This document shows, in pieces, positions 14,410 to 64,000 of a stretch of 64,000 nt of DNA; within the stretch, counting starts at the first letter, position 1, and every line of letters starts with the position of its first letter. Source of the DNA: an uncultured Dokdonia sp. (GTDB lineage: Bacteria; Bacteroidota; Bacteroidia; Flavobacteriales; Flavobacteriaceae); NCBI GenBank assembly GCA_947503305.1, contig CANNDF010000006.1:62001-126000 (forward strand), read 5' to 3'. The position numbers were made by a program, and so were the translations under genes. Below the pieces are notes generated by a model. The model was not told where the DNA came from. It worked only from the letters and a program-made list of their open reading frames with translations, and searched no databases.

Positions 14410-14422
14410 TTTGATCCAGATA

Positions 14423-38554: not shown

Positions 38555-38570
38555 ATTACAACGTTTTCGT
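38555..38570. promoter_or_regulatory. LacI-type operator between GH32 and LacI genes
   Basis: ATTACAACGTTTTCGT agrees at 13 of 16 positions with the perfect palindrome ACGAAAACGTTTTCGT found upstream of SusC at 63935. The central AACGTT is typical of LacI-family sites. It is placed to control both divergent units. Confidence 0.55.
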
Positions 38571-45765: not shown

Positions 45766-46201
45766 ACGTTTAAATGTAAATGGTTAAAAATTTTAGTTTA
45801 AAAAAATAAGAAAAGGCACATCTACTTGATTTCTAGAATCTAAATAATGTAATGCCTTCACCTATAACTAAATGTAAAATATCTACAGGTAAAAAAGAAA
45901 AAAGAGGGAGGTAATGTAATATTCGGGAGATATAAGGGTATAACTACCCCTTTTTGTGTAATAAACGGATTTTTAACACCTCATAATTCTGTTCATTTTA
46001 GTATTTACTCACTTAATTTAAGACCCTAAAAAGCGAGTATAGGGTCCATTAGTCATTAAAAGTATGAACTTATATAGAGCATTGTTTCGGATTTATATAG
46101 TAAACGGGTAATTAAAATAAACGATTTGTTTTTTGCAAAAGCGTACTCATATAACCTCCTCTTTCAGAAGAATTGAGCATAGTATAGAGAGGTCTCTTTA
46201 C
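45766..46201. other. Intergenic region with right 58-bp repeat and a decayed palindrome
   Basis: No gene was seen in 436 bp. It holds the right copy of the 58-bp repeat (45907-45965) and TTTTGCAAAAGCGTAC (46131-46146), a decayed copy of the dispersed palindrome at the end of the SusC operon. Confidence 0.55.
45907..45965 (-). repeat. 58-bp repeat, right copy, inverted
   Basis: The reverse complement matches 42851-42908 with a shared 27-bp block and a shared 14-bp block. It lies upstream of the minus-strand lipoprotein gene, so either the pair is a regulatory leader used twice or it forms the ends of a 3.1-kb insertion. Confidence 0.7.
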
Positions 46202-46771
46202 TTATTTCAACCTAATTTTAAGATGTTGTACCAATCCATCTATAGTAGTTCTTGAAAATAGTGCCCCTGTGAGTCTATTCTTTTCAGGATGTATAGAGAA
46301 GTTACGAGCACTTGTAAAATCTGCTTTTTGGAGTTGAGTGTTTTCAAAAATAGCACCTTTGAGGTTACACTCAGAAAAAATAGCATTGGTAAGGGTACTT
46401 TCTGTAAAGTCTGTTTCTTTTAGGGAGCAATCTTTAAAATGGGTATTAGATAAGTTGAGTTGGAAGCAATTTGCCAGATCCAGGATACAGTTAGTAAAGT
46501 TTATAGAAAGCATAAAGTCATTACTGCTACTAAGATCAACACCTGTCATTTTACAATTTGTAAATGTTATCTGGTTTAATGTGGTCCCTCCAAATCGGGT
46601 ATTCGTAAAGTTACAATCTTCAAAATCACATTCCAGAAATGTATAGTTAGATAAATGTTTTTCTGAGAAATTACAATGAATAAACCGGCATTGATCATAC
46701 TCGCCAGAAGGAAGTTTTTCTATTGTAAAATCAATGTCTGTATAAATTTGATCTTGAAAAAAAGCAGACAT
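46202..46771 (-). CDS. Pentapeptide-repeat protein (Qnr/McbG-like)
   Basis: The 189-residue product is built of pentapeptide repeats with central Phe or Leu (CRFIH, CNFSE, CDFED, CNFTN, CSLKE, TDFTE, CNLKG, ADFTS), which fold as a right-handed quadrilateral helix. Qnr and McbG proteins with this fold mimic DNA and protect DNA gyrase. No signal peptide is present. The gene is the last of the SusC operon, 8 bp after a GyrI-like gene, the other fold known to modulate gyrase. A gyrase role is plausible but many pentapeptide proteins have other jobs. Confidence 0.88.
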   Translation of the reverse strand: MSAFFQDQIYTDIDFTIEKLPSGEYDQCRFIHCNFSEKHLSNYTFLECDFEDCNFTNTRFGGTTLNQITFTNCKMTGVDLSSSNDFMLSINFTNCILDLANCFQLNLSNTHFKDCSLKETDFTESTLTNAIFSECNLKGAIFENTQLQKADFTSARNFSIHPEKNRLTGALFSRTTIDGLVQHLKIRLK

Positions 46772-46779
46772 TATATAGG

Positions 46780-47670
46780 TTATTCTTTTATAGGTAAGAA
46801 AATCTCTGCTTTCCAGTTCATCTCATTTCCTCCCATATTAGGATTATTATAAAATACTTCTATAGGTGTAAGATCTACGTCTATATGATTTTTATCTGCA
46901 TATTCTTTGAGAGCATACCAAGCTCTGTCTGAGGTGATATAATTACCATTATAGGTAGCTTTTATGGCGTTGCGTTCTAGATATCTTTTATACTTAATTT
47001 CTGGATGTTGAGGTAAGTGATCTGGACGTTTGATAGGGAAGCAAAAATTGTACTCTATACTATCTTTAATAGCATCCCATTTTGTAATTTCTACAAAAGG
47101 AGTTCCGTTAAGTTCTACATCGCCTTTCAACATAATTTGAGTAAGAAGGGAATAATTGCGCATCATCCCTTTTGCCTTTTCTATCTGCAATCCTTTTAAA
47201 GGGGTATAAGCGACAAAAGTTGCACGGGTAGTACTTTCTCCATTAATAGTAACCTTGAATTTTTCTAGATGGCTATTGAGTAGATCAAAAAATTCTTTGG
47301 CTGTTGTTTCTGATCGTTTTTCAAAGTTGGTTTTTGAAAAAGGAATTGCTAGCTTATTAGCTAGGCTATTTTCTAGATCTTTTATATATACTTTTACGCT
47401 GGAGATAGAGTCATTTACAGGACTTAATTTCCAGGTATAGATATGTGTAGAATCTCCAAAAGTAAATTGTTGTTGGATTTCATCCAGTCTACTTTTGTCA
47501 ATGATTTGTGTATTCTCTAAGGAGGAATTCCACGATTTAATAGATTGATTGATGGTCCCTACGGTAGTTTTTGCATTAAAGCGAACTACATAATCATAGG
47601 GTTTTATAAATAGATACCATGCAATTACTGCGATGACAATAAACGCAAGTATAGCAACAATTTTTTTCAT
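46780..47670 (-). CDS. GyrI-like protein with N-terminal membrane anchor
   Basis: The 296-residue product has an N-terminal hydrophobic segment (KKIVAILAFIVIAVIAWYLF), an SRPBCC-like region over about 30-140 (IKSWNSSLENTQ...FTFGDSTHIYTWKLSP) and a C-terminal GyrI/AraC effector-binding domain over about 145-296 (GDVELNGTPFVEITKWD, TPIEVFYNNPNMGGNEMNWKAEIFLPI). The latter normally binds small hydrophobic or drug-like molecules. It lies 7 bp after the haloperoxidase-like gene and 8 bp before the pentapeptide gene, which argues for one transcript. Confidence 0.85.
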   Translation of the reverse strand: MKKIVAILAFIVIAVIAWYLFIKPYDYVVRFNAKTTVGTINQSIKSWNSSLENTQIIDKSRLDEIQQQFTFGDSTHIYTWKLSPVNDSISSVKVYIKDLENSLANKLAIPFSKTNFEKRSETTAKEFFDLLNSHLEKFKVTINGESTTRATFVAYTPLKGLQIEKAKGMMRNYSLLTQIMLKGDVELNGTPFVEITKWDAIKDSIEYNFCFPIKRPDHLPQHPEIKYKRYLERNAIKATYNGNYITSDRAWYALKEYADKNHIDVDLTPIEVFYNNPNMGGNEMNWKAEIFLPIKE

Positions 47671-47677
47671 AAAACCT

Positions 47678-49039
47678 TTAATTAGACGTCTGGGTAGCAG
47701 TCGTATTTTCGAATTTAATTTTTTGATTTACAAATTGTCCTAAGGCTCTTCCCTGGTCAAGACCATTATCTACAGCAGCTCTGTAATGGATACCTCCGTA
47801 GAGTCTACTTACCGCAGCTTCATCGGCAGCTTTTCTAAAAGATTCAAAACTGCGAACAGGAATTCCATAAGGTAACTCTGTATCGTCATCAAAAGCAAAC
47901 CCTTCTCCAAAGATATCGGTCAATGCTTCTGAAGCTGCGCCAGAAACTACAGAATGGCCACTTACGTATTCTGGAAATGGAGGGGTCTGTAAGATAGGCT
48001 CCCAGGCATCATTAAAATGCTCATTGATCAATGTTTCTGGCCGTATTAAATTACTTCGGTATTTCTCGTCCCAACAGCTTATAAAAGCATCTGCAATGGC
48101 CAGTGATGTTTTGGTATACGTATGCATGGTTTGCATAACATCATAGTTGGCTTTTCGGGAAGCTATTTTTGAAATTCCAATCCAATGTGCTCCAGGGGTA
48201 ATCTTTTTTGTTGCAAACATTAAATGCCCCCGAGTTACAGATACATAAGGATTACAATCCCAAAATTGAGCAATGGCAATTTCTTCGGCAGTGTCTCCTT
48301 TTTCTGTAATAGCCTCACTAAGATCGTATACTTCTTTAAGTTCTTTATAGAATACAGATTCTTTATCTAAAGAAAATGCCGGAGGTGGGACAGGTTTAAA
48401 TTGTGCCGCAGAGTCAATCACAAATGGCCGTATTTTATTCCAGTGAGGCTCTATACCATCCATATAAGCAGGAGGTGTAGGTTGCCATCTCGATGGATCA
48501 TCATAGGCAATTGTAAATTTAGGAAATGTACGTGTTTGCTTATACATATCTTTATCCATCCAGTCTGCAATATGTTGTGCTACTGTTAAGCCATACGTTT
48601 TTGATGCCTCTAGCTCTTTTTTATTTGTAGTACTCCATAATTGATAGAGGCTATCGCGATAGGTTGTGATTTTTTCTTCTGAGAATATAAGACGTCTACT
48701 TAAATCTATATGCGCAACTAGTGCAGCTAGGTCATAATTAATGTTTTCAGTTACTGCTGGAGTAGGGATGTCTGTAAGATCTGTAATTTGTCCAGCTAGT
48801 GAATTGAATTCTGGAGATTGACTTGCCAAAATTTCATAAGCCGCAACATTAGGATAGGCATAGATTCTACTCGCTACTGGAGGCGAGAAAATATCATGAA
48901 TCATTACTTGTGTTACCTTATCTACAGATTCATGAAAATTATCTGTAGTAATGACAATAGGCTCTGATGTATCTGCGCAAGAGGCACATATACTTAATAG
49001 GATCAATGTTCCAAAATAGTGGGATATTATTTTATTCAT
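47678..49039 (-). CDS. Vanadium haloperoxidase/PAP2-like lipoprotein
   Basis: The start at 49039 gives MNKIISHYFGTLILLSICASCADT, a lipoprotein signal (Cys21); the frame is open 42 bp more upstream but that adds polar residues before the signal. The 453-residue product shows the PAP2/vanadium-haloperoxidase phosphate or vanadate pocket: KYRSNLIRPETL, FPEYVSGHSVVSG and SRLYGGIHYRAAVDNG hold the Lys, Arg, Gly-His, Arg and His ligands. It could be a phosphatase or a haloperoxidase; sequence alone does not decide. It overlaps the third ASPIC gene by 8 bp and precedes the GyrI-like gene by 7 bp. Confidence 0.88.
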   Translation of the reverse strand: MNKIISHYFGTLILLSICASCADTSEPIVITTDNFHESVDKVTQVMIHDIFSPPVASRIYAYPNVAAYEILASQSPEFNSLAGQITDLTDIPTPAVTENINYDLAALVAHIDLSRRLIFSEEKITTYRDSLYQLWSTTNKKELEASKTYGLTVAQHIADWMDKDMYKQTRTFPKFTIAYDDPSRWQPTPPAYMDGIEPHWNKIRPFVIDSAAQFKPVPPPAFSLDKESVFYKELKEVYDLSEAITEKGDTAEEIAIAQFWDCNPYVSVTRGHLMFATKKITPGAHWIGISKIASRKANYDVMQTMHTYTKTSLAIADAFISCWDEKYRSNLIRPETLINEHFNDAWEPILQTPPFPEYVSGHSVVSGAASEALTDIFGEGFAFDDDTELPYGIPVRSFESFRKAADEAAVSRLYGGIHYRAAVDNGLDQGRALGQFVNQKIKFENTTATQTSN

Positions 49040-52000
49040 GGGACTCATTTTTTTGTAATTCGTAAACATGTGCTGTATCATTATTATACGTTACCAGAAG
49101 GTACGTTTTTTTATCAATTTGTATTGTATTAAGATGTCTAGTAGATTTTTGGGCAAGATCTAATCCAAGTTGATGACCTAGTATAACCGTTCCGTCTGCT
49201 TCTAGCATAGCGCCAGAAAAAGAATCCAATCGACCATGATATGGTTTTACACCAAAATAGTTGCCTGCCATTAAAAGCTCTTCTTGACCATCGCTGTCAA
49301 AATCATAGGTAGTAAAAGCCATAATAGGGGAGAGTTGTAGGCTTTCGCCAAAAGGGATAAATGTAAACTGTCCTCCTTCATTTTTAAGATAGCCAGAGGT
49401 AAGGGTATGTACTTTTAATAGATCACTTTTTGCTAAGGCTTTTTTGCCAAAAATTGCTTCTACCGTTTGTCCTCCAAAACTTTTATACGTATTGTATTTT
49501 TTATGAAGGTACGTCATTTGAGATGCAAGCTCATCAAGTCCTAAAATAGGATAATATTCTCCTTCTTTTTGAGTAGCAACGATTGTTTCTGATTGTCCAT
49601 TATCATCAAAATCATCAAGATACATATGCATAGGAGCGTCTGATGTAGCATAAAATTTACTATTTTCTCCCCAGTTTCCTAAGATATAGTCCATATCTCC
49701 ATCATTGTCTATATCAAAAGGCTGGATCGCTTGCCATAACCCATTGAGAGATTCATTATATACTGTGACCTTATCAAGTTTTCCGTTTGTGTTTTTATAA
49801 AATACAGGAGCCATCCATTCTCCTATAACAATAAGGTCTTTAATACCATCCCCTGTAAAGTCACTCCATACAGCATCTGTAAGCATTCCTACGGCATCAA
49901 AAGTATTGCTTGTATCTATACGAAGAGTACCATTTTCATTTTTCAGAAGTAACGACTGAGAGGGTTTTCCAAAATTATTGGTAATTGCCTGATTTCCTAC
50001 AAATAGGTCTAAATCTCCATCTCCATCATAATCATACGTTGCCAGAGTAGCTGCATTTTGAAAACTGTCTTCCAATTCTTGTTTTGTATAGGTAGTGTCT
50101 TGGGCTGTAAAATATTGATCCCGTAGCGCTCTAGCTTTGTTATAAAAATCAGTACCTCCAGTGCCCACAAAAAGATCATTGCGATTATCATTAGTAAAAT
50201 CTGCAAGGGTGGCTACAACATCTTCTGTCACTGCATTTTTTGTAAGTGCAGGATATAGCGCTTCTTTAAAACCAGCACTGTCTTGTAGATATACTTTTGA
50301 CGGAACAAACTTAGAACTGCCAAAATAAATATCGTCTTTTTTGTCTCCATTAATATCTCCTATAGCTACTGCAGGCCCTCTATCCGAAACCTGATAGGGA
50401 ATTAATTTCTGACGATTAAAATCAATGTATCGATCTTCAGTATGGGTGTAATCAATCCCTAAATTATTTGTTACTCTCGTAAATAATGTACGGTTTTTGG
50501 GGATTAACATATTGTAGTCAAAAGGTGTATTTCCTTCTGGAGAGATCGTAAGTGTTTGATTAACTTTTACATCTTTTAGAACTTGTGAGGTGTGATCAGG
50601 CCAGACAATACGTAAAGAATCTATGTTTTGTGAAGCCCCATACCCAAAATGGATAATAGGCTCTGAAGATGCTTGAAACCCTCTTACGGTATACAATTCC
50701 TTATATTGTAGTTGTCCTTGGTGATATGAGAACACCTTGGTTCCTATTCCTAGAGAATTAGGTTTTGTATAATCAAAACGAAGCTTTAAAAAAGCAGCTT
50801 TGGTATCTGTCGTATTTTTATAGACTTGAGGCGTTGTATTTATATTGTTTGTAATAATATCGAGGTCTCCGTCATTATCAAAATCGGCAATAGCAGTTGC
50901 ACCAGATATTAGTGTGTCTTTACGAGTCCAATTTCCAGAGAGGTCTTCAAAACTCAAAGCGCCATTCCCTTTATAGATATAGTTATGTGTATTGCCTTTA
51001 GGCATTAATTCTAGTGCTTTTTGATCGATAAGCTTCGTATTGTTTATTTTGTTTCGGATTTGATCACTAGAAACAAACTTGATATAATCCAAATCATTAG
51101 GTCGTTTTGGGATACCATTAGAAATAAAAAGATCTTGTTTACTGTCTTGATCAAAATCTGCAAATAGTGCACTCCAACTCCAATCTGTAGCTGCAATTCC
51201 ACTAAATAAAGCACTTTCCTGATACGTATATCCGGGTTGATTTATATACAGCATATTCCTTGTAAACTGGTAATGATATCCAAAACGTTCAATACGTAAT
51301 TTCTGGGTTTGAATATTATCATCTCCTTCAGAAGATTTTAGAACTTTCTCATCTTGAGGGAGCATATCTAATGAGATAAGATCTGGCCAACCGTCACCAT
51401 TAATGTCTGCAGCGTCATTACCCATAGAAAATCGTGAGGTATGGCCGAAGTAATCTTTTAAGCTTTCGCGAAAGCTACCATCGCCATTATTTATATAATA
51501 ATAATCATCTTCATGAAAGTCATTACCTATATAGATATCTGGCCAGCCATCCTGATTAAAATCTGTAACTGTAATTCCCAGTCCATAGCTATTAATCCCT
51601 CCATAAATTCCTGCTTCTTCACTTACATCTACAAAGGTGTTTCCGTCATTACGCATGAGTTTATCACCTGTTTCATAATTACGTTTATAGCGTAAGGATG
51701 CTTTTCCAAAAGATTCCTGAGTATGAACGGCATGGTTTAAAATATAAATATCCAAATCTCCATCTTGATCATAATCCAAAAATGCGGCATTAGAACTATA
51801 AGTATCTATATCTAGCCCATATTTTTGAGCGCTTTCTGTAAAGGTGGTATCCCCATTATTGATATAAAGTTCATTATAACCATCAAATCCATTGATGCCT
51901 ACTACAGCACATACATAGATGTCCAAAAGCCCATCCCCATTTACATCTCCCATAACGGCTCCAGTATTCCAGGTGCTGTTTCCTGAGACTCCAGCAGTAT

Positions 52001-52298
52001 CTGTTATGTCTTCAAACTTGAGATTTCCTTTGTTGAGGTAAAGTTTGTTTTTTACCTGATTTCCAGAAATAAAAATATCAGGGAGTGTATCTCCATTAAT
52101 ATCACCTACGGCTAGACCACCTCCATTATAGAAATAGAGATAATCTATAATATTAAAATCATCACTTTCTGTGAGTTGGTTGACAAACGTGAGTCCGGTA
52201 TCGCTGGCTGGAGGGTTTTTAAAAAGCGTATCCTTTTCTGCACATGCAACTAGTAAAAAAAGAAAAGTAATAAATGCTATTTTCTTAATTACTGCCAT
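49032..52298 (-). CDS. FG-GAP/ASPIC-UnbV repeat lipoprotein, paralogue 3
   Basis: The 1,088-residue product is a lipoprotein (FLFLLVACAEK, Cys19). It is built of FG-GAP/VCBS-type repeats with calcium-binding loops such as DINGDTLPD, DVNGDGLLD, DYDQDGDLD, DFNQDGWPD, DFDNDGDLD and DYDGDGDLD, which form beta-propellers. An ASPIC/UnbV domain lies near residues 490-570 (DSLRIVWPDHTSQVLKDVKVNQTL). A copy of the dispersed palindrome is read as SFRESL near residue 275. It overlaps the preceding paralogue by 14 bp. It is presumably an outer-membrane or surface protein; no catalytic site is seen and the ligand is unknown. Confidence 0.9.
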   Translation of the reverse strand: MAVIKKIAFITFLFLLVACAEKDTLFKNPPASDTGLTFVNQLTESDDFNIIDYLYFYNGGGLAVGDINGDTLPDIFISGNQVKNKLYLNKGNLKFEDITDTAGVSGNSTWNTGAVMGDVNGDGLLDIYVCAVVGINGFDGYNELYINNGDTTFTESAQKYGLDIDTYSSNAAFLDYDQDGDLDIYILNHAVHTQESFGKASLRYKRNYETGDKLMRNDGNTFVDVSEEAGIYGGINSYGLGITVTDFNQDGWPDIYIGNDFHEDDYYYINNGDGSFRESLKDYFGHTSRFSMGNDAADINGDGWPDLISLDMLPQDEKVLKSSEGDDNIQTQKLRIERFGYHYQFTRNMLYINQPGYTYQESALFSGIAATDWSWSALFADFDQDSKQDLFISNGIPKRPNDLDYIKFVSSDQIRNKINNTKLIDQKALELMPKGNTHNYIYKGNGALSFEDLSGNWTRKDTLISGATAIADFDNDGDLDIITNNINTTPQVYKNTTDTKAAFLKLRFDYTKPNSLGIGTKVFSYHQGQLQYKELYTVRGFQASSEPIIHFGYGASQNIDSLRIVWPDHTSQVLKDVKVNQTLTISPEGNTPFDYNMLIPKNRTLFTRVTNNLGIDYTHTEDRYIDFNRQKLIPYQVSDRGPAVAIGDINGDKKDDIYFGSSKFVPSKVYLQDSAGFKEALYPALTKNAVTEDVVATLADFTNDNRNDLFVGTGGTDFYNKARALRDQYFTAQDTTYTKQELEDSFQNAATLATYDYDGDGDLDLFVGNQAITNNFGKPSQSLLLKNENGTLRIDTSNTFDAVGMLTDAVWSDFTGDGIKDLIVIGEWMAPVFYKNTNGKLDKVTVYNESLNGLWQAIQPFDIDNDGDMDYILGNWGENSKFYATSDAPMHMYLDDFDDNGQSETIVATQKEGEYYPILGLDELASQMTYLHKKYNTYKSFGGQTVEAIFGKKALAKSDLLKVHTLTSGYLKNEGGQFTFIPFGESLQLSPIMAFTTYDFDSDGQEELLMAGNYFGVKPYHGRLDSFSGAMLEADGTVILGHQLGLDLAQKSTRHLNTIQIDKKTYLLVTYNNDTAHVYELQKNESHE
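51461..51476. repeat. Dispersed palindrome copy 7 (in paralogue 3)
   Basis: AGCTTTCGCGAAAGCT, 16-bp perfect, inside the FG-GAP/ASPIC gene; on the coding strand it is read as Ser-Phe-Arg-Glu-Ser-Leu. Confidence 0.8.
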
Positions 52299-55200
52299 TG
52301 TAAACCTTTGGTTTTTGATTATTGATCGCTGCGATAATATACGTTTTCCCAGCCTTGTCTTTAAAAGTAGCTATGTGTTTTACTTCATCACGTACTTCAA
52401 AACCACTAGTGCTATAATCTTGCCATTCAAATCCTAATTTCCCGTCTCCTAATAATACATTACCACTACTAGCATCTAGCTGTGAGTATTGAGGTTTAAA
52501 TTCAAAATTATTGCCGGCCATGATAAGATCTATATTCCCATCGTTGTTTACATCTGTACAAGCAATACCACATACACATGATAATTGTACTCGTGTAGGA
52601 AGTTCTTGAGTTGAGAATTTTCCATTTCCTTCATTGATAGCAATGATAGAAGTAGAGGTTTGAACTTGTTTTACAATTGAATTGTCTAGAACTTCCTTTG
52701 AAAAAAGAGCATCTATAGATCGTTTTGCATAATCTGATGCTTTTATATTTTGCTTCTTGAGGGATACAAGTTGCCCTGTAAGCTCTTTCTTTTGATGGAT
52801 AGGGTAATCTTTTCCATCTTTTTGAAAAGTCGTAATCTGCTCAATGGTTCCGTTATTATCAAAATCATTGATATACATTTTCATTAACCCTCTGTCTTCT
52901 GGTTTGTAATGGATATTGGTTCCTTCATTACCCAATATCAAATCTAAGTCTCCGTCATTATCAAGATCTGACGCTTCTATCGTATTCCACCAGCCATATA
53001 GATTGTCTAAATCACTTTCCATTTTTGATAAACGTCTTCCAGAGTTTTTAAAAATTTTAGGTGTATCCCATTCTGAGGTAGTTATAAGATCCTTTTTCCC
53101 ATCTTTATCGATGTCAATCCAGATAGCATCGGTAATCATTCCTGCGTCTTTTACAGGATAGGCAAGACGTTCTGTAGCATCTACAAATTCTCCGCCCCCT
53201 TTGTTTTCTAAAAAGAGATGTTCTGGGTTTATTCCATATACCGCAATGACACTTCGAGACCCTATAAAGACATCAATATCTCCATCTTGATCAAAGTCAT
53301 AGGGTGCTACAACAGACATATTTTGAAATACAGATGGTAAGGGAGATGTACTTTTTGTAAAGTTGCCTTTTCCGTTATTGATATATAGTCGTGGTCTATA
53401 GTCATTTTTTTTGTCTACCTGATTCCCTCCAGATGCTACTAAAAGATCCAAATCTTCATCCCCGTCTGCATCAAAGAATGCAGCTGCCACATCTTCGTAA
53501 TTTGCATCTGTTTCAAAAATAGATTGTGGACTCGTAGTTAGTTTACCATTACCGCTATGTAAATAGAGATTTGCTGCTTGTCCTTTAGCACCCCCTATAA
53601 AAATATCTTCATGCCCATCACCATTTATATCTCCTACAGCTAGTGATGGTCCTTCTTCAGATAGTTTTTTGGAGATTAAGCCTTCGTAATCAAAATCGTT
53701 ATACTCATTTTCTTTATGTGATATGAGTGACGTATTAGATACTTCATTGAGCAATTGCTTTATTTTTTTAGGTTTTGGAATGGTATAGGTAGTTACTGCA
53801 TCCGAAAGTTTTAAAGTTAGTGTTTGATTAACGTTTAGATTTTCAAATTTTTGAGTTTGTTCATTAGGCCAGATAACACGTAATGAATCTATTTTCTGAG
53901 TATCTCCCAGTCCAATAGTCATTCCGTATTCCATAGAAGATTGGAATCCTCTAGAGGGAATTAATTCTTGTAAAACGGTATTCTCCCCATGGTATAAACG
54001 TACGGTTGTCCCAACGGCAAATGGATTTTTTGTATCTCCTTCAAAGTTTAATTTAATGTAGTTATGATCCCCATCTGCAGGGGTATTATTTCTATAGACA
54101 AAGGCATCCATATTAACATTGTTAACCACAAAATCCAAGTCTCCATCATTATCCAAATCCCCGTAGGCAGCTCCATTGGACATGCTCAGAATTTCTAGTC
54201 CCCAATCTGCAGATGCATTTGAAAAAGTAATATCTTTCTGGTTATGATATGCATAGTTGGATAATGGTTTAACAGGCATTTTATTTATAATAGAATCCAC
54301 TGCTCTTGTACGTCCGGTTGTTCTGCTTTGAATAATTTCATTTGCAAAGAAATCTACAAAGTCTAGATCTGTAAGATCATGATTGATACCATTGGTTACA
54401 TAGATATCTCGATACCCATCATTATCCATATCAAAAACAAGCCCAGACCAACTCCAGTCTGTTGCCTCTACACCGCTATGGTATGCAACTTCTGAGAATG
54501 TGCCATTTCCATTATTGATTTGTAAAGTGTTTTGTATAAACTGTTGATAAAAGTCATTACGTTGTTTACGTTTATATACTGCATATCCATCAAACTCCAT
54601 TACAGATTTTACGCGCTCTTCACCATCAGGAAGCATATCTGTAATAAAAATGTCTTGTAATCCATCGTTATTTATATCGGAAATATCAATTCCCATCGCC
54701 GATAACGATAAGTGGGAAGTCCAGTTTTTTATTTCTTCTGTAAACGTACCGTCCTTTTGATTAATATAGAGGTAATCTCTTTCAAAGAAATCATTTGAGA
54801 CATAGATATCTGGATACAAATCATGATTTATATCTGTGACTAAAACTCCAAGTCCAAAGCCTATTAATGATCCATATATTCCTGCTTCTTGACTTACATC
54901 TGTAAAGGTATTTCCATCGTTACGCATTAATAAATCTCCAATACCTCGTAGATTATCATCTATATTTTCCCAGTCTTGTGCTCGTTTATCACGTTGTCCT
55001 TCATTACCTAATCGTGTAGCAGAAACATTACTATTATTAAGGATATACGCATCTAAATCCCCGTCTTTATCATAATCAAAAAACGTAGCATGTGTAGAAA
55101 AGCCTGTCGTAGCCAGATTCCATTCTTTTGCTTTTTCTGTAAATGTGAGATCTCCATTGTTGATATACAGATCGTTATCATGATTATCTGCCTCAAAATT

Positions 55201-55650: not shown

Positions 55651-55652
55651 TA

Positions 55653-58600
55653 TTAGTTCTCTTTTTTAAGAAATAAGGCTGTATTATTATTACGCCCTAC
55701 GACATAAAAATCTTGCTCTTTTATTTTAATTTTTTCAATACTTCGGGAGGCTCCAGGGATATCACATTCTTGATTTTCTAAGGCAATAAAACCGCCCAGA
55801 GTATCATTTTGCAAAAATACACCATGAGAAGCATCTAGCCTACCTATTTGAGTGCTTATTTCGTAGTTATTCCCTACTAAAATAGCATCTAGAAAGCCAT
55901 CTTTATTAAAATCATCAATAGCGATATCTTGTACTGTTGATATTTGTGCGAGAAATGGTAATTCATGGGTTTTAAATGTACCATCCCCTTTATTTTCAAA
56001 ATAAACAGAAGCAAATTGATAGGCTTTTTTCTTTTCAGCTTCCTGTAATTTTTTCTTACCAAAGATATCTTCGATTTCCGCTTTCGCGAAAGCGTTATAT
56101 GACAAAAATTCTTTATTAATCAAAGGAATCTGTTTTACTAACTCATCTTTTGTCGCTAGGGTAGTTTCCGTTCCTTTATAATAATATGTAACGATTGGGT
56201 CTATCTGCTTATTATTATCAAAATCATTACGGTATAGAGTAACGGGCTCTTCTTTGTTGGGTTTTAATCGCGTGTTAAGACCCCAGTTTCCTGCTATAAT
56301 ATCAATATCACCATCATTATCAAAATCATGAGCTTCAAGAGAGTTCCACCATCCATGACTATATGCCAGAGTGCTATTTTTTTGAAGCTGTAAAGTGCTT
56401 CCATTATTTATAAAGATAGAGATGGGCATCCAATGACCAGCGACAATAGCATCTTCAATACCGTCTTGATTTATGTCTTTCCATACAATATCATATACAT
56501 TTCCTATATCTTTAAACTCTCTTGCATATGTGTTTGTGATGTCTTCAAAATGACCTTGGCCATCATTTCTAAATATATATTGTAATGGTGTTTTCCCAAA
56601 TTGATGAGGTAACACATTTGATGTTATGCTTATATCTATATCATTGTCATTATCTATATCCATAGCTCTAACTTTAGACGCATTTATAATTACATCCTTA
56701 AATTCTTGATCGGCTCTAGTGAAGACTCCTTCTTTATTATAGTATAAACGTGGTGTTAACGGGGCTCCTTTTTTAAACTCATTTCCGCCACTTACAATGA
56801 GTAGGTCTTTATAAGAATCCCCATTGGCATCAAATAAGACAGCATGTACATCTTCATGTATTTTTGTACTACTTGCGTCAGGTAGATCTTCTGGTTGAAA
56901 AATACCATCTTTGTTTTGTGACCAAATGACTGAGGGTTGCCCTTTGGCTCCCAATGCTATAAGGTCTTCATAACCATCGTTATGTATATCTCCTGTTATT
57001 ATTGAGGGTCCTAAGTTAGTCGTGGCATAAGGGATTAATGGGTCTCTATTAAATTCTATAGAAGTACCATCTCTATGCGCATATTGAATGGGAGAGGCCG
57101 TATTTGATATGTAATTTTTAAATAATGACTTTTCTTCTTTGTAATAATTATTTGAAGCGTTTTTATAGTCTAGTTCTAGAACTTGGTTAACAGATACTTT
57201 TTTTAGGGTTTGGTATTTTTTATCAGGCCATATGACTCTTAGAGAATCAATAATTGTATCCTTATGAGTTCCTGCAAAAACACTTGGTGGAACTGAAGAT
57301 AAGAAGCCTTTAGTAGTATAGTTTTCAAAATACTGATGATTTCTATTTGAAAATATCTGAACTTTTGCTCCTAACCCGTATATATTTTTTGGACTTCCTT
57401 TAAATTTAAGTTTGATATAGTTTAGACTATCTACTTCCGAATTTGTTGTATTCTCTAGAATAAATGCTTGTTCGTTTACATTGTTTACGACCAGATCTAA
57501 ATCCCCGTCATTGTCCAAATCTCCGTAACTTGCGCCATTACTAAATGTTTTTATTGAGGCTTTCCATGTAGTACTTACATCTTGAAATGTTACATTACCA
57601 TTGTTTTTATAAAAGTAGTTAGGTGTTTTTTTTTCTGGAAGTTCATCTATAAAAGCAAGCTCTTCTTCTTGCATTCCTTTACCTAATCGCTTTTGGATAC
57701 TTTCGTTAGATATAAAATTGACAAAATCCATATCATTAGTTGCTCCTTTTATTCCGTTGGTAATATAAATGTCTTTTAAGCCATCATTATCAAAATCTGC
57801 AATAAGCGGTGACCAAGACCATTCAGTAGCAGAGATACCGCTTAAATGAGCGGTTTCAGAAAATTTATTCTTCCCTAAGTTGAGGTGCAATGTATTTTGC
57901 ATAAACTGAGGAGTATATCCATTCCTTAATTGGTTTTGGAATATAGGATAGTTATATTCAGTACCTGATGATTTTAGTGTTTTTAAATCTTCTGGTAACA
58001 TGTCTAATGAAATAATATCTGATCTGCCATCATTATTGATATCTGAAATAGCATTTCCCATTGAAAAATGTGAACTATGGCCTAGTAATGATTGTGTAGA
58101 ATTTACCTCTTCAAAAGTTCCATTTTTTTGATTAATATATAGATAGTCGTTTTCAAAAAAATCATTACCTAAATAAATATCGGGATATCCATCATTGGTT
58201 ATATCTCCTATTGAAATTCCCAATCCATAACCTATTCGACTTTGAAAAATTCCTGTTTTTGAAGTTATGTCAATAAATTTTCCGTCTTGATTTTCGAAAA
58301 ATTTATCTCCAGTTAATGAATCTGCTACGTTTCTAATAGCGCCTTTACCATAATTACTGTTGGGATGAAGAGAATGATTAAGTAGATAAACATCTAAGTC
58401 ACCATCTAGGTCATAATCAAAAAAAGCAGCTTGGGTTGAAAGACCAGAATAATTAAGGCCATATTCTTCGGCTTGTTCTTTAAAAGTAGGAATTCCTGTA
58501 TCTGTATATCCTTGATTTATATATAATAGATTTGATCCTGTAAGATGTAAATGACCACTTACTTTTGAAATATAAATATCTAAGAGACCATCATTGTTAA

Positions 58601-58949
58601 TATCTACTACGGTTACTCCTGTTGTCCAGCCTTTATCATTGGTAATATTTGAAGCTTTTGTACTGTTTTCAAATTGAAGTTTTCCTTTATTTATATATAA
58701 ATGATCCTGTGTTTGATTTGCTGTAAAATAGATGTCTAATAAGCCATCGTTATTAAAATCGGCTATAGCTATTCCTGCACCATTATAAAAATATAGGTAG
58801 TTGAGTATATTAAGTTGTGTGGTATTTGTTATAGTATTTGAAAAGGAAATTCCTGTTCCTTTTGCTTGTATAAACTTAGTAGGAATCACTGCTTCTTTAC
58901 ATGAATAGATAAAGAGGATAAGTAGTAGTATTAAGTAGTTGAATCTCAA
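55653..58949 (-). CDS. FG-GAP/ASPIC-UnbV repeat lipoprotein, paralogue 1
   Basis: The 1,098-residue product is a lipoprotein (LILLLILFIYSCKEA, Cys17) with the shared opening YFYNGAGIAIADFNNDGLLDIYF, repeats with DxDxDG loops (DYDLDGDLD, DFDNDGLKD, DLDNDGDLD, DFDNDGDID), an ASPIC/UnbV segment DSLRVIWPDKKYQTLKKVSVNQVL near 570 and C-terminal repeats. A palindrome copy is read as NAFAKAEIE near residue 953. It follows SusD by 84 bp, in which a hairpin lies. Confidence 0.9.
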   Translation of the reverse strand: MRFNYLILLLILFIYSCKEAVIPTKFIQAKGTGISFSNTITNTTQLNILNYLYFYNGAGIAIADFNNDGLLDIYFTANQTQDHLYINKGKLQFENSTKASNITNDKGWTTGVTVVDINNDGLLDIYISKVSGHLHLTGSNLLYINQGYTDTGIPTFKEQAEEYGLNYSGLSTQAAFFDYDLDGDLDVYLLNHSLHPNSNYGKGAIRNVADSLTGDKFFENQDGKFIDITSKTGIFQSRIGYGLGISIGDITNDGYPDIYLGNDFFENDYLYINQKNGTFEEVNSTQSLLGHSSHFSMGNAISDINNDGRSDIISLDMLPEDLKTLKSSGTEYNYPIFQNQLRNGYTPQFMQNTLHLNLGKNKFSETAHLSGISATEWSWSPLIADFDNDGLKDIYITNGIKGATNDMDFVNFISNESIQKRLGKGMQEEELAFIDELPEKKTPNYFYKNNGNVTFQDVSTTWKASIKTFSNGASYGDLDNDGDLDLVVNNVNEQAFILENTTNSEVDSLNYIKLKFKGSPKNIYGLGAKVQIFSNRNHQYFENYTTKGFLSSVPPSVFAGTHKDTIIDSLRVIWPDKKYQTLKKVSVNQVLELDYKNASNNYYKEEKSLFKNYISNTASPIQYAHRDGTSIEFNRDPLIPYATTNLGPSIITGDIHNDGYEDLIALGAKGQPSVIWSQNKDGIFQPEDLPDASSTKIHEDVHAVLFDANGDSYKDLLIVSGGNEFKKGAPLTPRLYYNKEGVFTRADQEFKDVIINASKVRAMDIDNDNDIDISITSNVLPHQFGKTPLQYIFRNDGQGHFEDITNTYAREFKDIGNVYDIVWKDINQDGIEDAIVAGHWMPISIFINNGSTLQLQKNSTLAYSHGWWNSLEAHDFDNDGDIDIIAGNWGLNTRLKPNKEEPVTLYRNDFDNNKQIDPIVTYYYKGTETTLATKDELVKQIPLINKEFLSYNAFAKAEIEDIFGKKKLQEAEKKKAYQFASVYFENKGDGTFKTHELPFLAQISTVQDIAIDDFNKDGFLDAILVGNNYEISTQIGRLDASHGVFLQNDTLGGFIALENQECDIPGASRSIEKIKIKEQDFYVVGRNNNTALFLKKEN
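56079..56094. repeat. Dispersed palindrome copy 8 (in paralogue 1)
   Basis: CGCTTTCGCGAAAGCG, 16-bp perfect, inside the FG-GAP/ASPIC gene; on the coding strand it is read as Ala-Phe-Ala-Lys-Ala. Confidence 0.85.
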
Positions 58950-58982
58950 CGCTTTTTAATGCTGTTTGGTTATGTAAATTAA

Positions 58983-59010
58983 AAAAGAGGGTTGATACCA
59001 ACCCTCTTTT
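58983..59010 (-). terminator. Intercistronic hairpin after SusD
   Basis: AAAAGAGGGTTG pairs perfectly with CAACCCTCTTTT around ATAC. On the minus strand it ends in a short T run. It stands between SusD and the ASPIC genes, so it probably stops part of the transcripts and leaves the distal genes at lower level. Confidence 0.7.
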
Positions 59011-59033
59011 AAAGCTTAATTCAAATTTCAGGT

Positions 59034-60671
59034 TTAGTAACCTGGATTTTGTGTCAAATTAGGGTTTAAGATAATCTGACTTGCAGGAATTGGAAATAAG
59101 TTTAAGTTAGCATCTCCAACTGCACTAGGATCTTTTAACTCCCAATCTCTCGTATATTGTCCAAAACGAATCATATCGTTTCTTCTCCAAAATTCTGCAT
59201 ATAATTCACGTCCTCTTTCATCAAGCATATCCTGCTCAGTAACTGCTCCTAATGGTGCAGCTTGACGGAGAACACGTAATTCATTTACTTCTGAAGTAGC
59301 ATCTCCTCCGCTACGCATCATAGCTTCTGCTCTCATTAAGTGAGCATCTGAGAATCTAAAGAATATTTCATGATTAGTAAACCCTCCATAACGTGGGTTA
59401 TACTTCATCACACGAATACCAGTAACTTCACTGTTGTTAATAAGGTTAGAGTTACCATCTCCATCTACAAAATCTCTTTCAAATGCTAGTGGTGCTCCAC
59501 CTCTTTCATTAAGTGCATTACCATTAATTTCATATTGTTGACCAATTAAGAAACCAAACCCTACATTAGATCCTGATTCAAATCCTGGGAAATCACCAGA
59601 TTCTGTAGTTCCAGGCTCTCCCGTAAATGGCGTACCTTCAGTAGGTACATATCCTCTACGTTCTTCTTGACCAGAACCTAATTGATTAATATTTGGATCT
59701 CCTTCAAAAAGATCATAATATTCAGCTAGTGTAGAGAATCCATTCCATCCACCTCCAGCAATTTCTGGAGCCATGTTGTAGTGTAATCCATTCCAAATTC
59801 TATTACCTACTGCTGTAGGAATAAACCAGATAGTTTCTGCGTCAAGATCATTTCTGAAAATGTCAAAATATCCATCTACTAGTCCATATCCTTCTGCTTC
59901 AATAGCATCTACCAGAGATACAACTTGATTCATATCTGCAGGATCAGGAGATGTTCCTAAGTATATATGCTTATTCAAAAGAACTTTTGCAAGAAGATAT
60001 CTCGCAGCAGCTTTTGATGCTCTTGCATGAGCTGAATCTGCATTTCCTTCCCCAGAACCTGGAGCTAATGCAGGAAGATCTGCAATGGCACCGTTTAGGT
60101 CTGCAATAATTTGATCTACAGCTTCTGCACCACTGATCACAATAGGATCTTCTAATAATGACAATTCAGGATCACGAACAGGAATCTGTCCATAATTATC
60201 TAAAATAACAAACATTCCAAATGCTCTGATAAATTGAGCATCTCCTCTTTGCTCAGTTGTAAGCGTTGTCAAAGGAGAAAGTAATTGAGAACCTGCAAAT
60301 TGAGTTCCATTGAATTGGTTCCATACATTAGTAATATATGCATGGTCGTTTTGCCAATTGTGTTGGTGTAATTGTCTCCAGATACCATTATCTCCCCAGT
60401 CAGATCCTCTAGTAGGAATAAGGGCAGCATCTGTAGTTACTTCACTAAGAGCAAAAAAGTCTGCTTGATTACCAATAAGTCCGTTAAAACTATTGTATAC
60501 ACCATCAATAAAAGTGGCTGGATCTACAACACCTTGGAATCCTGCAGTGTTAATAGAATCCGTTTCTTCAACCTCTAAATCGGTACAAGATACCGCAAGG
60601 CCTAAAGCAAGTACTCCAGCAAAGAGATACTTAGCTTTAAAATTAAATCGTTTTTGTTTCATAGTATTCAT
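59034..60671 (-). CDS. susD: SusD/RagB-family nutrient-binding lipoprotein
   Basis: The 545-residue product has a lipoprotein signal (FAGVLALGLAVSCTDLE; Cys29 from the first Met) and the SusD features: the N-terminal DPATFIDGVYNSFNGLIG, helical TPR-like segments (ARASKAAARYLLAKVLLNKHIYL) and the C-terminal MRAEAMMRSG...LRVLRQAAPLG and FPIPASQIILNPNLTQNPGY. It binds an oligosaccharide or other nutrient at the surface and hands it to SusC. An alternative start lies 9 bp downstream. It begins 8 bp after SusC. Confidence 0.93.
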   Translation of the reverse strand: MNTMKQKRFNFKAKYLFAGVLALGLAVSCTDLEVEETDSINTAGFQGVVDPATFIDGVYNSFNGLIGNQADFFALSEVTTDAALIPTRGSDWGDNGIWRQLHQHNWQNDHAYITNVWNQFNGTQFAGSQLLSPLTTLTTEQRGDAQFIRAFGMFVILDNYGQIPVRDPELSLLEDPIVISGAEAVDQIIADLNGAIADLPALAPGSGEGNADSAHARASKAAARYLLAKVLLNKHIYLGTSPDPADMNQVVSLVDAIEAEGYGLVDGYFDIFRNDLDAETIWFIPTAVGNRIWNGLHYNMAPEIAGGGWNGFSTLAEYYDLFEGDPNINQLGSGQEERRGYVPTEGTPFTGEPGTTESGDFPGFESGSNVGFGFLIGQQYEINGNALNERGGAPLAFERDFVDGDGNSNLINNSEVTGIRVMKYNPRYGGFTNHEIFFRFSDAHLMRAEAMMRSGGDATSEVNELRVLRQAAPLGAVTEQDMLDERGRELYAEFWRRNDMIRFGQYTRDWELKDPSAVGDANLNLFPIPASQIILNPNLTQNPGY

Positions 60672-60679
60672 TTTTTTAA

Positions 60680-63600
60680 TTAAAATCTTGCATTTACACC
60701 TAATGTAAATGTACGAGCTCTAGGGAATGATGCATAATCAATTCCTGCAGTAGGAATTGCAGATGCATTAATGCTTCCTGTATTTGTTGATACTTCAGGA
60801 TCTAAACCACTATAATCTGTGATAAGAAATAAGTTTTGTCCTGTAAGTGTAAGTCGTAAAGAATCAAAGAAACCTTCACCGCTTAGTGGGAAATTATAAC
60901 CTAAAGAAGCAGATTGTAATCTTACAAAATCTCCTGACTCTAAGAATCTAGTTGATACTGCTGTCGTTGCTGCACCATCTTCACCACTTGAAATAGCCGC
61001 TTGAGTAACATTTTTACCAATGTTGATTCCCCCTGCTGTAAAGAATGCATTTGCTGTAGCATTATATACTGAGAAATCAAACTGACCAGCAAAATAAGCA
61101 GATAAATCAAATCTCTTATAGGATAAGTTTAAAGATAAACCTGCATTGAAATCTGGTAATGCATCTTCACCTACAAAGAATTTATCAGAATCGGGATCTC
61201 CTACACCATCACCGTTAAAATCGGTATATGTTGGGAATCCATTTTCATCAAATCCTGTGAATTCTGCTAAGAAGAAAGAGAATAATGGTTGACCAGCTTG
61301 AAGACGTTGTGCAAATGCACCTGTCAGACCGTTACCATTAATTGCTCCAGTATCAATCACTTGATCTGTATCTTCTACTTCATTGAAGTTATACGAGAAG
61401 TTGAATGATGTTGAGAAGTTCCAATCATCTGTATCAATCCAATCATAATTAAGAGTTACTTCAAATCCTTGGTTTATTACAGTACCATCATCTAAGTTTC
61501 TAAATATAGTAGGGATTCCTTGTACAGCTGGAGCAGCAAGACCACTTACTAAAAGAAGGTCATCTGTTTCTCTACGATATACATCAATCGTACCATTAAA
61601 ACGGTCATTGTTAAATCCAAAATCAAGACCGATGTTGAAATCTGTAGTCTCTTCCCATCTAAGGTCTGGATTATCGTTACCTACGAATACTGTACCTGGA
61701 GTATTGATTGTTCCATCATTATTAATACCTGGTGCTCCAAAACGAGTTCTTAATAGGAAGTTTGCAAATCCTAAACCTTCTTGGTTACCTACGATACCTG
61801 CACCTACTCTAAGTTTTAATGTAGAGAATGCATCACCTACAAAATCTTCTTCACTTAACTGCCATGCAAATGCTGCAGATGGGAAATACCCATACTGATT
61901 TTCATCTCCAAACGTTGAAGAACCATCCGCTCTAAAAGTAGCTGTAAGTAAATATTTGTCGTTATAGCTATAATTTGCTCTTACAAAGAATGACTGTAAT
62001 TCATCAGTATTATCAAAAGTGTCTCCAAAATAAGAAGTAATCTCTCTTGTAAATCCTGATCCTAAACCTTCTGAAGATGTAGTACCATCAGAAAGAGATA
62101 GTCTATTTACAAAGTTGTTACCATTTACATCATAACCAAATTGCTGGAAATCTCCTTGTATAGAGTTTGCAGTTGCAAAGTATTGTCTTCTCAATTGACC
62201 AGCCATCTCATCAAGGTTATTCGTGTTGAATCCCCAACCTCCAGCATTAATACCTTCTCTTTCAAACTCTTGATAAGCGTAAGCACCAATGATATCTATT
62301 TTTGATTTACCAAACTCTTTCTTGTAGTTTAAAGAAGCTTCAAGAAGTGAGTTGTCTTGATCAAAGGTGTTAAAAGAACCTTGTCCATTACCAGATACTC
62401 TATTAATTCCAGTTACTAATGGAGCAAAAGATGTAATTGTTTCTGCTTCAGACTTATCATATCCTACAGTAACTTTGGCACTAAACTCATCAGTAATTTG
62501 ATATTCAGCAGATAAGTTTGCTAAGAAACGATCTGTATTAGATCTACTCTGATAGTACTCTAATAAGTTAACTGGATTTAATAAGTTAGATCCAAAATCC
62601 AAATCTGCATCGATAGGGAATGTTGGATTTGTTGTAATAGCAGCACCTATTAAATCTCCTGTAGATCCTGCAGATCCACTAATAGGAGCTGCTTCATCAT
62701 TTACTCTTGAAATAGATCCCTGGAAATTTATTGTTAATTTATCATCAAAGAATTTATGTTGTGCATTTACACGACCTGTAATACGCTCTTGAGATGAACT
62801 TTCAATTACACCAAATTGATTACTGTAAGCTAAAGAAGCACGTACATTACCGCCATTGTAGCTCTTAGAATAACTTAAATCAGTTCTTCTAGAGAATGCA
62901 TTTCTCAAGATAACATCTTGAAAATCATTGTCAAATCCTTGGTCTGCCGCCACTGCATCATTTCCTGTGTCAGCGACAGCTTGTAAGAAATCATTACGTC
63001 CTAAAAGGTCATATTCATCAGCTGCAGAAGCAGAACTTACAGATGAATTTAATTCCCAAGTTCCTTTTGAGTTTCCTCTACCTCCTTTAGTTTGGATAAT
63101 GATAACACCATTTGCACCACGAGATCCATAGATCGCTGTTGCAGATGCATCTCTAAGGATGTTAATACTTTCTATATCATTAGGGTTTAAGAAACTTAAT
63201 GGGTTTCTTCCTGCACCACCACCAAAAGCAATATTTCCTGGTGCTGGAGTTCCTGCTGTAGTTAATGGAACACCATCAATTACAAATAATGGATTGTTTC
63301 CAGAACGAATAGAATTAGAACCTCTAATACGTACAGCGATACCTGCACCTGGTTCACCAGAAGACTCTGATATTTGAACCCCTGCAGTTTTACCTTGAAT
63401 TAATTGTTCTGGTGAAGCTATAACCCCTTGGTTAAAATCTTCAGCTTTTACGGCAGATACAGAACCAGTCGCATCCTTTATTGTAGTAGTACCATAACCT
63501 ATTACAACAACTTCGTCTAATGCGTTATCTAATGCAAGTGTTGCATTTACGGTACTTCTTCCTCCTACAGCTATTTCTTGGCTTGCATACCCTACATAAC

Positions 63601-63817
63601 TAAATACGAGTACTGCATCACTTGCTACATTATTAAGAGTATAATTACCGTCAAAGTCGGTAGTGGCACCATTCTGTGTACCTTTTACAATAACGTTTGC
63701 ACCTGGCAGCGGGCCACTTTCCTCAGTCACAGTACCAGTCACAGTCTGGGCATTAGCCATCCCTGTAAATAGAACCGCAACAAGCAATAGCATACTTTTA
63801 AGTAATACTTTCTTCAT
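60680..63817 (-). CDS. susC: SusC/RagA-family TonB-linked outer-membrane transporter
   Basis: The 1,045-residue product has a signal peptide (LKSMLLLVAVLFTGMANAQ), a CarboxypepD_reg-like domain (GTVTEESGPLPGANVIVKGT), the TonB contact DEVVVIGYGT, a plug domain with NIEDSINILRDASATAIYGSRGANGV-type motifs and a beta-barrel ending in TFTLGVNARF. It works with the SusD partner encoded 8 bp downstream. A LacI-type palindrome lies 118 bp upstream. This SusC pair serves an operon with ASPIC lipoproteins rather than glycoside hydrolases, so the substrate is not assigned. Confidence 0.95.
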   Translation of the reverse strand: MKKVLLKSMLLLVAVLFTGMANAQTVTGTVTEESGPLPGANVIVKGTQNGATTDFDGNYTLNNVASDAVLVFSYVGYASQEIAVGGRSTVNATLALDNALDEVVVIGYGTTTIKDATGSVSAVKAEDFNQGVIASPEQLIQGKTAGVQISESSGEPGAGIAVRIRGSNSIRSGNNPLFVIDGVPLTTAGTPAPGNIAFGGGAGRNPLSFLNPNDIESINILRDASATAIYGSRGANGVIIIQTKGGRGNSKGTWELNSSVSSASAADEYDLLGRNDFLQAVADTGNDAVAADQGFDNDFQDVILRNAFSRRTDLSYSKSYNGGNVRASLAYSNQFGVIESSSQERITGRVNAQHKFFDDKLTINFQGSISRVNDEAAPISGSAGSTGDLIGAAITTNPTFPIDADLDFGSNLLNPVNLLEYYQSRSNTDRFLANLSAEYQITDEFSAKVTVGYDKSEAETITSFAPLVTGINRVSGNGQGSFNTFDQDNSLLEASLNYKKEFGKSKIDIIGAYAYQEFEREGINAGGWGFNTNNLDEMAGQLRRQYFATANSIQGDFQQFGYDVNGNNFVNRLSLSDGTTSSEGLGSGFTREITSYFGDTFDNTDELQSFFVRANYSYNDKYLLTATFRADGSSTFGDENQYGYFPSAAFAWQLSEEDFVGDAFSTLKLRVGAGIVGNQEGLGFANFLLRTRFGAPGINNDGTINTPGTVFVGNDNPDLRWEETTDFNIGLDFGFNNDRFNGTIDVYRRETDDLLLVSGLAAPAVQGIPTIFRNLDDGTVINQGFEVTLNYDWIDTDDWNFSTSFNFSYNFNEVEDTDQVIDTGAINGNGLTGAFAQRLQAGQPLFSFFLAEFTGFDENGFPTYTDFNGDGVGDPDSDKFFVGEDALPDFNAGLSLNLSYKRFDLSAYFAGQFDFSVYNATANAFFTAGGINIGKNVTQAAISSGEDGAATTAVSTRFLESGDFVRLQSASLGYNFPLSGEGFFDSLRLTLTGQNLFLITDYSGLDPEVSTNTGSINASAIPTAGIDYASFPRARTFTLGVNARF

Positions 63818-63934
63818 AAGATTCTTGTTTAAAATTAGTTTGCTTAGTTTTAAAAATTTAGCGTTTAGTCACTTTATAAGCGCCTAATTTATGTAAAATT
63901 TACGTTAACACAATGCAATTACTTCGTTAAAGTT

Positions 63935-63950
63935 ACGAAAACGTTTTCGT
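63935..63950. promoter_or_regulatory. LacI-type operator upstream of the SusC operon
   Basis: ACGAAAACGTTTTCGT is a perfect 16-bp palindrome with the AACGTT centre of LacI-family sites. It lies 118 bp before SusC and adjoins a possible -7 element (TAACTTTA on the minus strand, 63929-63936). It resembles the site at 38555 beside the LacI gene. Confidence 0.65.
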
Positions 63951-64000
63951 GTTTATAACACGTTTTTACTAATATATTCTAAAATTGCAAGCTCATTTTT

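Follow-up and report, generated by a model that had tools for sequence, protein, structure and literature searches.

The 64,000-nucleotide stretch of an uncultured Dokdonia sp. analysed here (contig CANNDF010000006.1, positions 62,001 to 126,000; hereafter the window) carries eight minus-strand genes at 46202-63817, which encode the uptake pair SusC and SusD, three FG-GAP/ASPIC lipoproteins (ASP1, ASP2 and ASP3), a PAP2-like lipoprotein (VHPO), a GyrI-like protein and a pentapeptide-repeat protein. The alignments described below show the PAP2-like lipoprotein to be orthologous to a characterised vanadium iodoperoxidase. Its presence in a sugar-uptake locus points to a surprising connection between iodine chemistry and feeding on sugars. 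The reading that we favour, with modest confidence, is that the eight genes form the envelope part of a disaccharide locus under LacI control, of the sucrose or alpha-glucoside type, with accessory propellers and an iodoperoxidase. Our verdict is that the locus is a variant of the SusCD utilisation locus that is new relative to the openly licensed literature. No paper found there links an iodoperoxidase or ASPIC lipoproteins to SusCD sugar loci, names ASPIC, UnbV and SusD together, or assigns a characterised function to ASPIC proteins, the last as the original prediction had noted. The text of PMC8319329 does not mention ASPIC, VCBS, haloperoxidase or sucrose.

The identity of the peroxidase was established by comparison with the PDB (phmmer). 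VHPO (47678-49039, minus strand) matched entries 4cit and 4usz, annotated as 'vanadium-dependent haloperoxidase', with an E value of 8.5e-213, the runner-up standing at 0.0032; the PAP2 profile scored slightly under its cut-off (25.7 vs 27.2). The residues K340, R347, S374, G375 and H376 were identical in 75 of 75 aligned peroxidases, and the SRxYGGIH motif was invariant. VHPO thus has the vanadate-site residues, in the segments K...RP, SGH and SR...H. It is present as a single copy in this genome at E <= 1e-20. The two PDB entries are the enzyme of Zobellia galactanivorans (PMC5064120), and are so named in an excerpt of PMC13198595. The window protein is 68% identical to 4CIT over 432 residues, and the proteins of three Zobellia loci (L071, L073 and L080) are 86-87% identical. 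Among nine Zobellia genomes, one gene showed 100% identity to 4CIT over all 433 residues used; the genome that holds it (G492) is presumably that of Z. galactanivorans. This exact gene (locus L157) lies directly 3' of three ASPIC genes and 5' of a GyrI-like gene. ZgvIPO1, which serves as the control, has iodoperoxidase activity only (native gel), according to an excerpt of PMC10427571. The original call of a vanadium haloperoxidase/PAP2-like lipoprotein agrees with the match to a solved vanadium haloperoxidase and, as to 'PAP2-like', is too wide for an iodoperoxidase orthologue.

The eight genes, all on the minus strand, were found by open reading frame (ORF) and coordinate checks with the order and spacings first described. 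SusC (60680-63817, 1045 aa) is a SusC/RagA TonB-linked outer-membrane transporter, with 686 bits for TIGR04056 against a cut-off of 368 and SusC homologues in the PDB. Eight bp downstream lies the gene for the SusD lipoprotein lid (59034-60671, 545 aa; PF07980 and PF14322 above cut-off, SusD_RagB), whose best PDB match is SusD itself (3ck7, E 6.7e-26), the alignment being restricted to residues 136-278 and 437-545. An 84-bp gap separates it from ASP1 (55653-58949, 1098 aa from the listed TTG start; cut-offs of PF13517 and PF07593 exceeded), followed after 2 bp by ASP2 (52285-55650, 1121 aa) and, with an overlap of 14 bp, by ASP3 (49032-52298, 1088 aa), both above the Pfam cut-offs for FG-GAP_3 and UnbV_ASPIC. 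VHPO overlaps ASP3 by 8 bp when read from the ATG at 49039, the start we prefer to that of the longest ORF, which begins at 49081. The gene for a predicted membrane-anchored, small-molecule-binding GyrI-like protein (46780-47670, 296 aa) follows after 7 bp and that for the accessory pentapeptide-repeat protein (46202-46771, 189 aa; PF00805/PF13599) after a further 8 bp. The family assignments of SusC, SusD, the three ASPIC proteins, the GyrI-like protein and the pentapeptide protein all rest on profiles above cut-off, as originally named. A lipobox Cys is present in SusD, ASP1-3 and VHPO.

The tie to sugar comes from the same window. Six sugar genes lie 3.4-11.5 kb beyond the 3' end of the operon, and two of these, the glycoside hydrolases of families 32 and 65 (GH32 and GH65), lie at 3.4-9.2 kb. 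On the minus strand stand a PfkB family kinase, probably a fructokinase (34731-35615; PF00294, with fructokinase as its top NCBIfam model at 105, far below the cut-off of 450), a sugar porter of the major facilitator superfamily (35608-36951; PF00083, TIGR00879 at 342 vs 238) and a GH32 enzyme of the beta-fructosidase/sucrase type with a lipoprotein-like N-terminus (36961-38511; PF00251/PF08244), which is the sole GH32 match in the genome. On the plus strand follow a LacI-family regulator of 347 aa (38634-39677; PF00356 and Peripla_BP_1/3 above cut-off), a beta-phosphoglucomutase (39752-40402; TIGR01990, 211 vs a cut-off of 189) and a GH65 enzyme, probably a maltose-type disaccharide phosphorylase (40441-42768; PF03632/36/33, NF010380 at 1148 bits). 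The adjacency of susC and susD, both above their family cut-offs, is as expected of a polysaccharide utilisation locus, and GH32 and GH65 provide its carbohydrate-active enzymes from outside the eight genes. The claim that no glycoside hydrolase is present holds inside 46202-63817, where a Pfam scan of the eight genes gave no carbohydrate-active enzyme, and fails for the window as a whole. A lipoprotein-like ORF of 181 residues at 45220-45765 (minus strand), which matched nothing in Pfam at E 0.01, lies between the GH65 side and the operon.

We examined 40 stretches from relatives, chosen from peroxidase-positive genomes, mostly ASPIC-positive and reaching mainly upstream. LacI was present in 26, GH65 in 14, GH32 in 10, XylA or XylB in 9 and a symporter of the SSS family in 12; 30 of the 40 had at least one tested sugar marker. 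Two neighbourhoods of susC were common, one with LacI, phosphoglucomutase and GH65, the other with LacI together with GH32, porter and kinase. Genes of the xylulokinase/xylose isomerase type stand in or beside the SusCD-ASPIC cluster in L169, L171, L172, L175, L177, L162, L187, L197 and L198. The cluster of L187 and L189 encloses genes resembling those of sulfonate-sugar oxidation, each below its NCBIfam cut-off: a luciferase-type monooxygenase that depends on flavin mononucleotide (FMN) and comes nearest to alkanesulfonate monooxygenase, an enzyme of the aldo-keto reductase type and a sulfite dehydrogenase resembling SorA. A member of the YeiH-type exporter family is also enclosed there, and in L022 a molybdopterin-type protein similar to this dehydrogenase is encoded 5' of ASP1.

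A candidate operator may connect the two halves. The perfect LacI-type palindrome ACGAAAACGTTTTCGT at 63935-63950 ends 117 bp 5' of the susC start, and a weaker copy with 3 mismatches lies between GH32 and LacI (38555-38570). At <=3 mismatches these were the 2 sites found in the window, compared to 0.28 expected. The 14-bp core has one exact copy in the 4.26-Mb assembly, with six further sites at one mismatch. Upstream of susC in relatives, the palindrome (<=3 mismatches) was seen in 27 of 36 against 1.26 expected, the pattern having been derived from this window and the relatives not being independent; it was also present in L161 and L168, relatives without LacI in the stretch read. A further operator-like site of this genome (C1:27277), near two ASPIC genes of ~584 aa, was attributed to chance, as it lies inside another gene (L210:7277, ORF 5699-7375). 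From these patterns we infer that LacI would control susCD through the palindrome.

The arrangement of the distal genes is conserved. From the peroxidase search the best 80 of 389 relatives' loci were kept, several of which end at contig ends; a GyrI-like gene was found in 75 and ASPIC genes in 73. The genes usually run ASP1-ASP2-ASP3-peroxidase-GyrI; in some loci there are only two ASPIC genes, and L075, L083, L085 and L088 deviate. The stated recurrence of SusCD with large ASPIC lipoproteins in Bacteroidota agrees with this conserved gene order. That the distal genes are kept with SusCD holds less generally: the pentapeptide gene was present in only 8 of the 80 relatives, and the locus with the exact 4CIT gene has no SusCD within the 5.7 kb read upstream. 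A lipoprotein-like gene of ~283 residues, without a Pfam match at E 1e-5, stands 3' of GyrI in 61 of the 80 (for example L020:12298-13149; L013-L092) and was not seen 3' of GyrI in the window. In an even draw of one genome per genus, 61 of 149 genomes of the family had a peroxidase match. Among 62 copies with >=40% identity (60 genomes), at least 48 had a same-strand ASPIC gene upstream within 20 kb, and at least 35 were followed within 3 kb by a GyrI-like gene, in at least 34 cases at a distance of -3 to 59 bp; the counts draw on 69 peroxidase, 37 GyrI and 61 ASPIC matches and are lower bounds. We estimate the chance of an ASPIC gene within 20 kb on one side at ~6% (12 genes in 4.26 Mb), and the conserved gene order rules out chance as the explanation.

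Across the phylum, 69 of 345 genomes had a peroxidase match. Among 18 high-scoring loci of other families (18-20 kb read), ASPIC genes were present in 14 and SusC in 8, often in different orders; four (L130, L131, L132 and L137) had neither. In one locus (L146, genome G042) the gene for a peroxidase of 38-41% identity stands immediately 5' of an ASPIC gene, a reversed order which indicates that the pairing is independent of order. In L192-L198 two ASPIC genes that belong to a second subtype flank a lipoprotein-like gene of ~190-200 residues. The phylogenetic tree placed 24 of 24 ASP2 proteins in one clade with support 1.0, and the ASP3 positional orthologues likewise (13 of 13, support 1.0). 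ASP1 did not pass the corresponding test: the smallest clade that unites the 13 rows labelled ASP1 also takes in ASP3, since a single row (L085:1730-5008, possibly mislabelled) is placed away from the others.

The original prediction treated the eight genes as one unit. Between SusD and ASP1, however, lies a terminator-like hairpin on the minus strand (58983-59010; 12-bp stem, free energy (dG) -16.5, T-rich tail), and a hairpin with dG <= -12 within 100 nt 3' of susD was found in 33 of 38 loci, with 0 expected from 20 shuffles each. In several relatives, moreover, susD is parted from the ASPIC genes by XylB-XylA or by a symporter gene in the opposite orientation. The hairpin and these insertions make a single eight-gene transcript doubtful. 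This is probably not one simple operon; on our reading susCD and ASPIC-peroxidase-GyrI are expressed as two units, and transcripts may read through from one into the other where the two adjoin. Promoters of the Bacteroidota type have the form TTTG / TAnnTTTG, and no match to it at <=1 mismatch was found upstream of susC. A sigma-70 scan of 45700-64000, of a type ill-suited to this phylum, gave 65 sites against 78.6 in shuffles; as the sites were fewer than in the shuffles, no promoter is claimed.

The ASPIC proteins merit closer description. ASP1, ASP2 and ASP3 each pass the Pfam cut-offs for an FG-GAP propeller followed by an ASPIC/UnbV domain. The fold was judged for ASP2 alone, which consists of a CRTAC1-like half and a second complete propeller (630-1121). 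The best reading is that ASP1-3 are lipid-anchored double beta-propellers with calcium-type loops. LGI1 and many propellers of the WD40 type scored equally high in the ASP2 fold comparison, and the ASPIC profile search matched CRTAC1 and integrins, not aldos-2-ulose dehydratase (AUDH) or PVL. A role as sugar-converting enzymes similar to AUDH was accordingly rejected, being one fold match among many propellers with no profile match. The assembly (4,264,867 bases, 57 contigs) has 12 UnbV_ASPIC matches, three of which are ASP1-3. Two stand-alone ASPIC proteins of ~1,100 residues occur in it without a peroxidase, on C5 (L094) and C2 (L096), the former encoded between two near-identical lipoprotein-like genes of 717 and 721 aa. 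The GyrI-like domain scored 27.4 bits for PF06445 against a cut-off of 26; its structural model (pLDDT, the predicted local distance difference test, 89.9) places it nearest to the PDB folds of CtaZ and CTR107. Export of lipoproteins to the surface follows a rule of acidic residues after the Cys, which SusD displays and for which ASP1-3 and the peroxidase have no clear acidic stretch. The lipobox test gave false positives in 6 of 7 cytosolic pentapeptide proteins of relatives, so lipobox counts among relatives are soft. Elsewhere in the window, at 10189-18145 (minus strand), lie two overlapping very long ORFs of 1422 and 1240 aa.

For the LacI-controlled disaccharide locus, we propose the following mechanism. 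The catabolic half would be formed by GH32, the sugar porter, the PfkB kinase, LacI, beta-phosphoglucomutase and GH65 (34.7-42.8 kb of the window). SusCD would import the disaccharide, the parts of which would be handled by GH32 or GH65. ASP1-3 may be accessory subunits of uptake, serving in binding or handling on either face of the outer membrane. In the envelope compartment that they share, the lipoprotein iodoperoxidase would oxidise iodide with peroxide, while a small reactive or aromatic product could be bound or neutralised by the anchored GyrI-like domain.

Several observations weigh against this proposal. A good operator was missing in 9 of 36 relatives. Upstream of the ASPIC genes it was not enriched (2 of 59 regions vs 0.78 expected), and this, together with the hairpin, means that the ASPIC-peroxidase part may be expressed apart from the sugar signal. 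The locus with the exact 4CIT gene showed neither SusCD nor LacI within 5.7 kb upstream of its ASPIC genes, only a symporter. None of the tested sugar markers was seen in 10 of the 40 relatives' stretches, and since the neighbours vary between glucoside, fructoside, xylose and sulfonate types, a single fixed sugar is improbable. ASP1-3 and the peroxidase lack acidic residues after the Cys similar to those of SusD, which leaves their exposure at the surface unsupported. Finally, nearness to sugar genes does not by itself assign a role to the peroxidase.

That role could be a different one. An unlikely alternative is that the iodoperoxidase consumes H2O2, iodide being the mediator, in places where sugars leak from algae and feed the cells; the propellers would then merely bind sugar or surface, and the enzyme would stand with sugar loci since sugar and peroxide co-occur. 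The conserved vanadate site is consistent with this, as is the fact that the cluster accompanies different sugar modules, and detoxification of reactive oxygen species is induced during macroalgae degradation according to an excerpt of PMC9296495. The copy reported as up-regulated on brown algae in that excerpt is, however, vIPO3, apparently not the one studied here, and neither a catalase nor an oxidase is part of the cluster.

Iodine acquisition is a somewhat weaker candidate, which we regard as speculative. Here the peroxidase would make hypoiodous acid (HOI) from iodide with H2O2 from sugar oxidation or from algae, and calcium-dependent propellers would bind iodine or iodinated organics, with entry through the envelope, as proposed for Arenibacter C-21. 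Strain C-21 accumulates iodine and requires glucose, oxygen and calcium to do so; systems that supply H2O2 or oxidise iodide can stand in for glucose, a membrane glucose oxidase and a haloperoxidase were proposed, and the genome holds at least five 4USZ homologues (PMC5064120). Z. galactanivorans, the source of the orthologous iodoperoxidase, can accumulate iodine as well (excerpt of PMC9296495). The calcium need of C-21 fits propellers of the calcium type and its glucose need fits a sugar locus, with simpler explanations for both; glucose may serve in C-21 merely as a source of H2O2. The neighbours in the window, moreover, are sugar genes and not halogen genes. We know of no SusCD system that carries iodine. 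An equally speculative combination is a sugar-linked iodine system in marine Flavobacteriia, where a disaccharide would induce SusCD, and where SusCD, the calcium-dependent propellers and the iodoperoxidase would jointly oxidise iodine and capture it, or else attach it to a surface ligand. If true, this would explain at the level of genes how Arenibacter accumulates iodine in a manner that depends on glucose, calcium and peroxide.

The view first taken of this locus, of an undescribed uptake or surface-modification system with no tie to sugar, is now very improbable. It draws on the lack of carbohydrate-active enzymes inside 46202-63817, on the undescribed function of ASPIC proteins and on the 10 of 40 relatives without the tested sugar markers. 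Against it speak the operator and the genes for GH32, GH65 and LacI of this window, as well as genes of these types next to susC in relatives, where the operator recurs too. Slightly less probable still is that the PAP2-type lipoprotein is a phosphatase acting on a phosphorylated uptake ligand, with vanadate binding incidental: the fold family (profile match below cut-off) and the PAP2 superfamily's vanadate pocket, which also accommodates phosphate, would allow it, and the 68% identity to an enzyme with iodoperoxidase activity only argues against it.

Returning to the disaccharide locus with its iodoperoxidase, its significance is twofold. A solved iodoperoxidase that had no genetic context in the openly licensed literature now has one, a conserved cluster that accompanies sugar-uptake loci in many marine flavobacteria. 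The role of the ASPIC/FG-GAP lipoproteins, and iodine accumulation in Flavobacteriaceae, can now be addressed by deletion and expression in the tractable genus Zobellia. If the coupling of peroxide and iodide to sugar is real, marine bacterial iodine cycling would be tied to the consumption of algal sugars.

Comparison with known systems places the locus among, and apart from, its closest counterparts. As in the alpha-glucan SusCD loci with GH13 and GH65 (PMC6298971 and PMC6794258, in excerpts), SusC and SusD are adjacent, a GH65 and a LacI-type regulator are nearby, and the window SusD is nearest in the PDB to SusD of Bacteroides thetaiotaomicron. Unlike these loci, the window operon has no SusE/F or GH13 that we could find, and instead has three CRTAC1-like lipoproteins, an iodoperoxidase and a GyrI-like protein. 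Compared to CRTAC1/ASPIC-UnbV (PDB 9ETN), the ASP proteins are larger (~1,100 residues), with an extra propeller and a lipid anchor. Their likeness to the VCBS-superfamily propellers (PVL lectins, integrin alpha and AUDH; excerpt of PMC8023676) is in fold only. With the Zobellia enzyme of 4CIT/4USZ the window peroxidase shares 68% identity, the same vanadate-site residues and the same ASPIC-GyrI cluster, whereas the window cluster adjoins SusCD and that of the 4CIT genome has no SusCD within 5.7 kb upstream. Iodine uptake in Arenibacter C-21 likewise belongs to a marine member of the Flavobacteriaceae with a proposed haloperoxidase of the 4USZ type and a need for glucose and calcium. The study of C-21 (PMC5064120) made no link to SusCD or ASPIC proteins.

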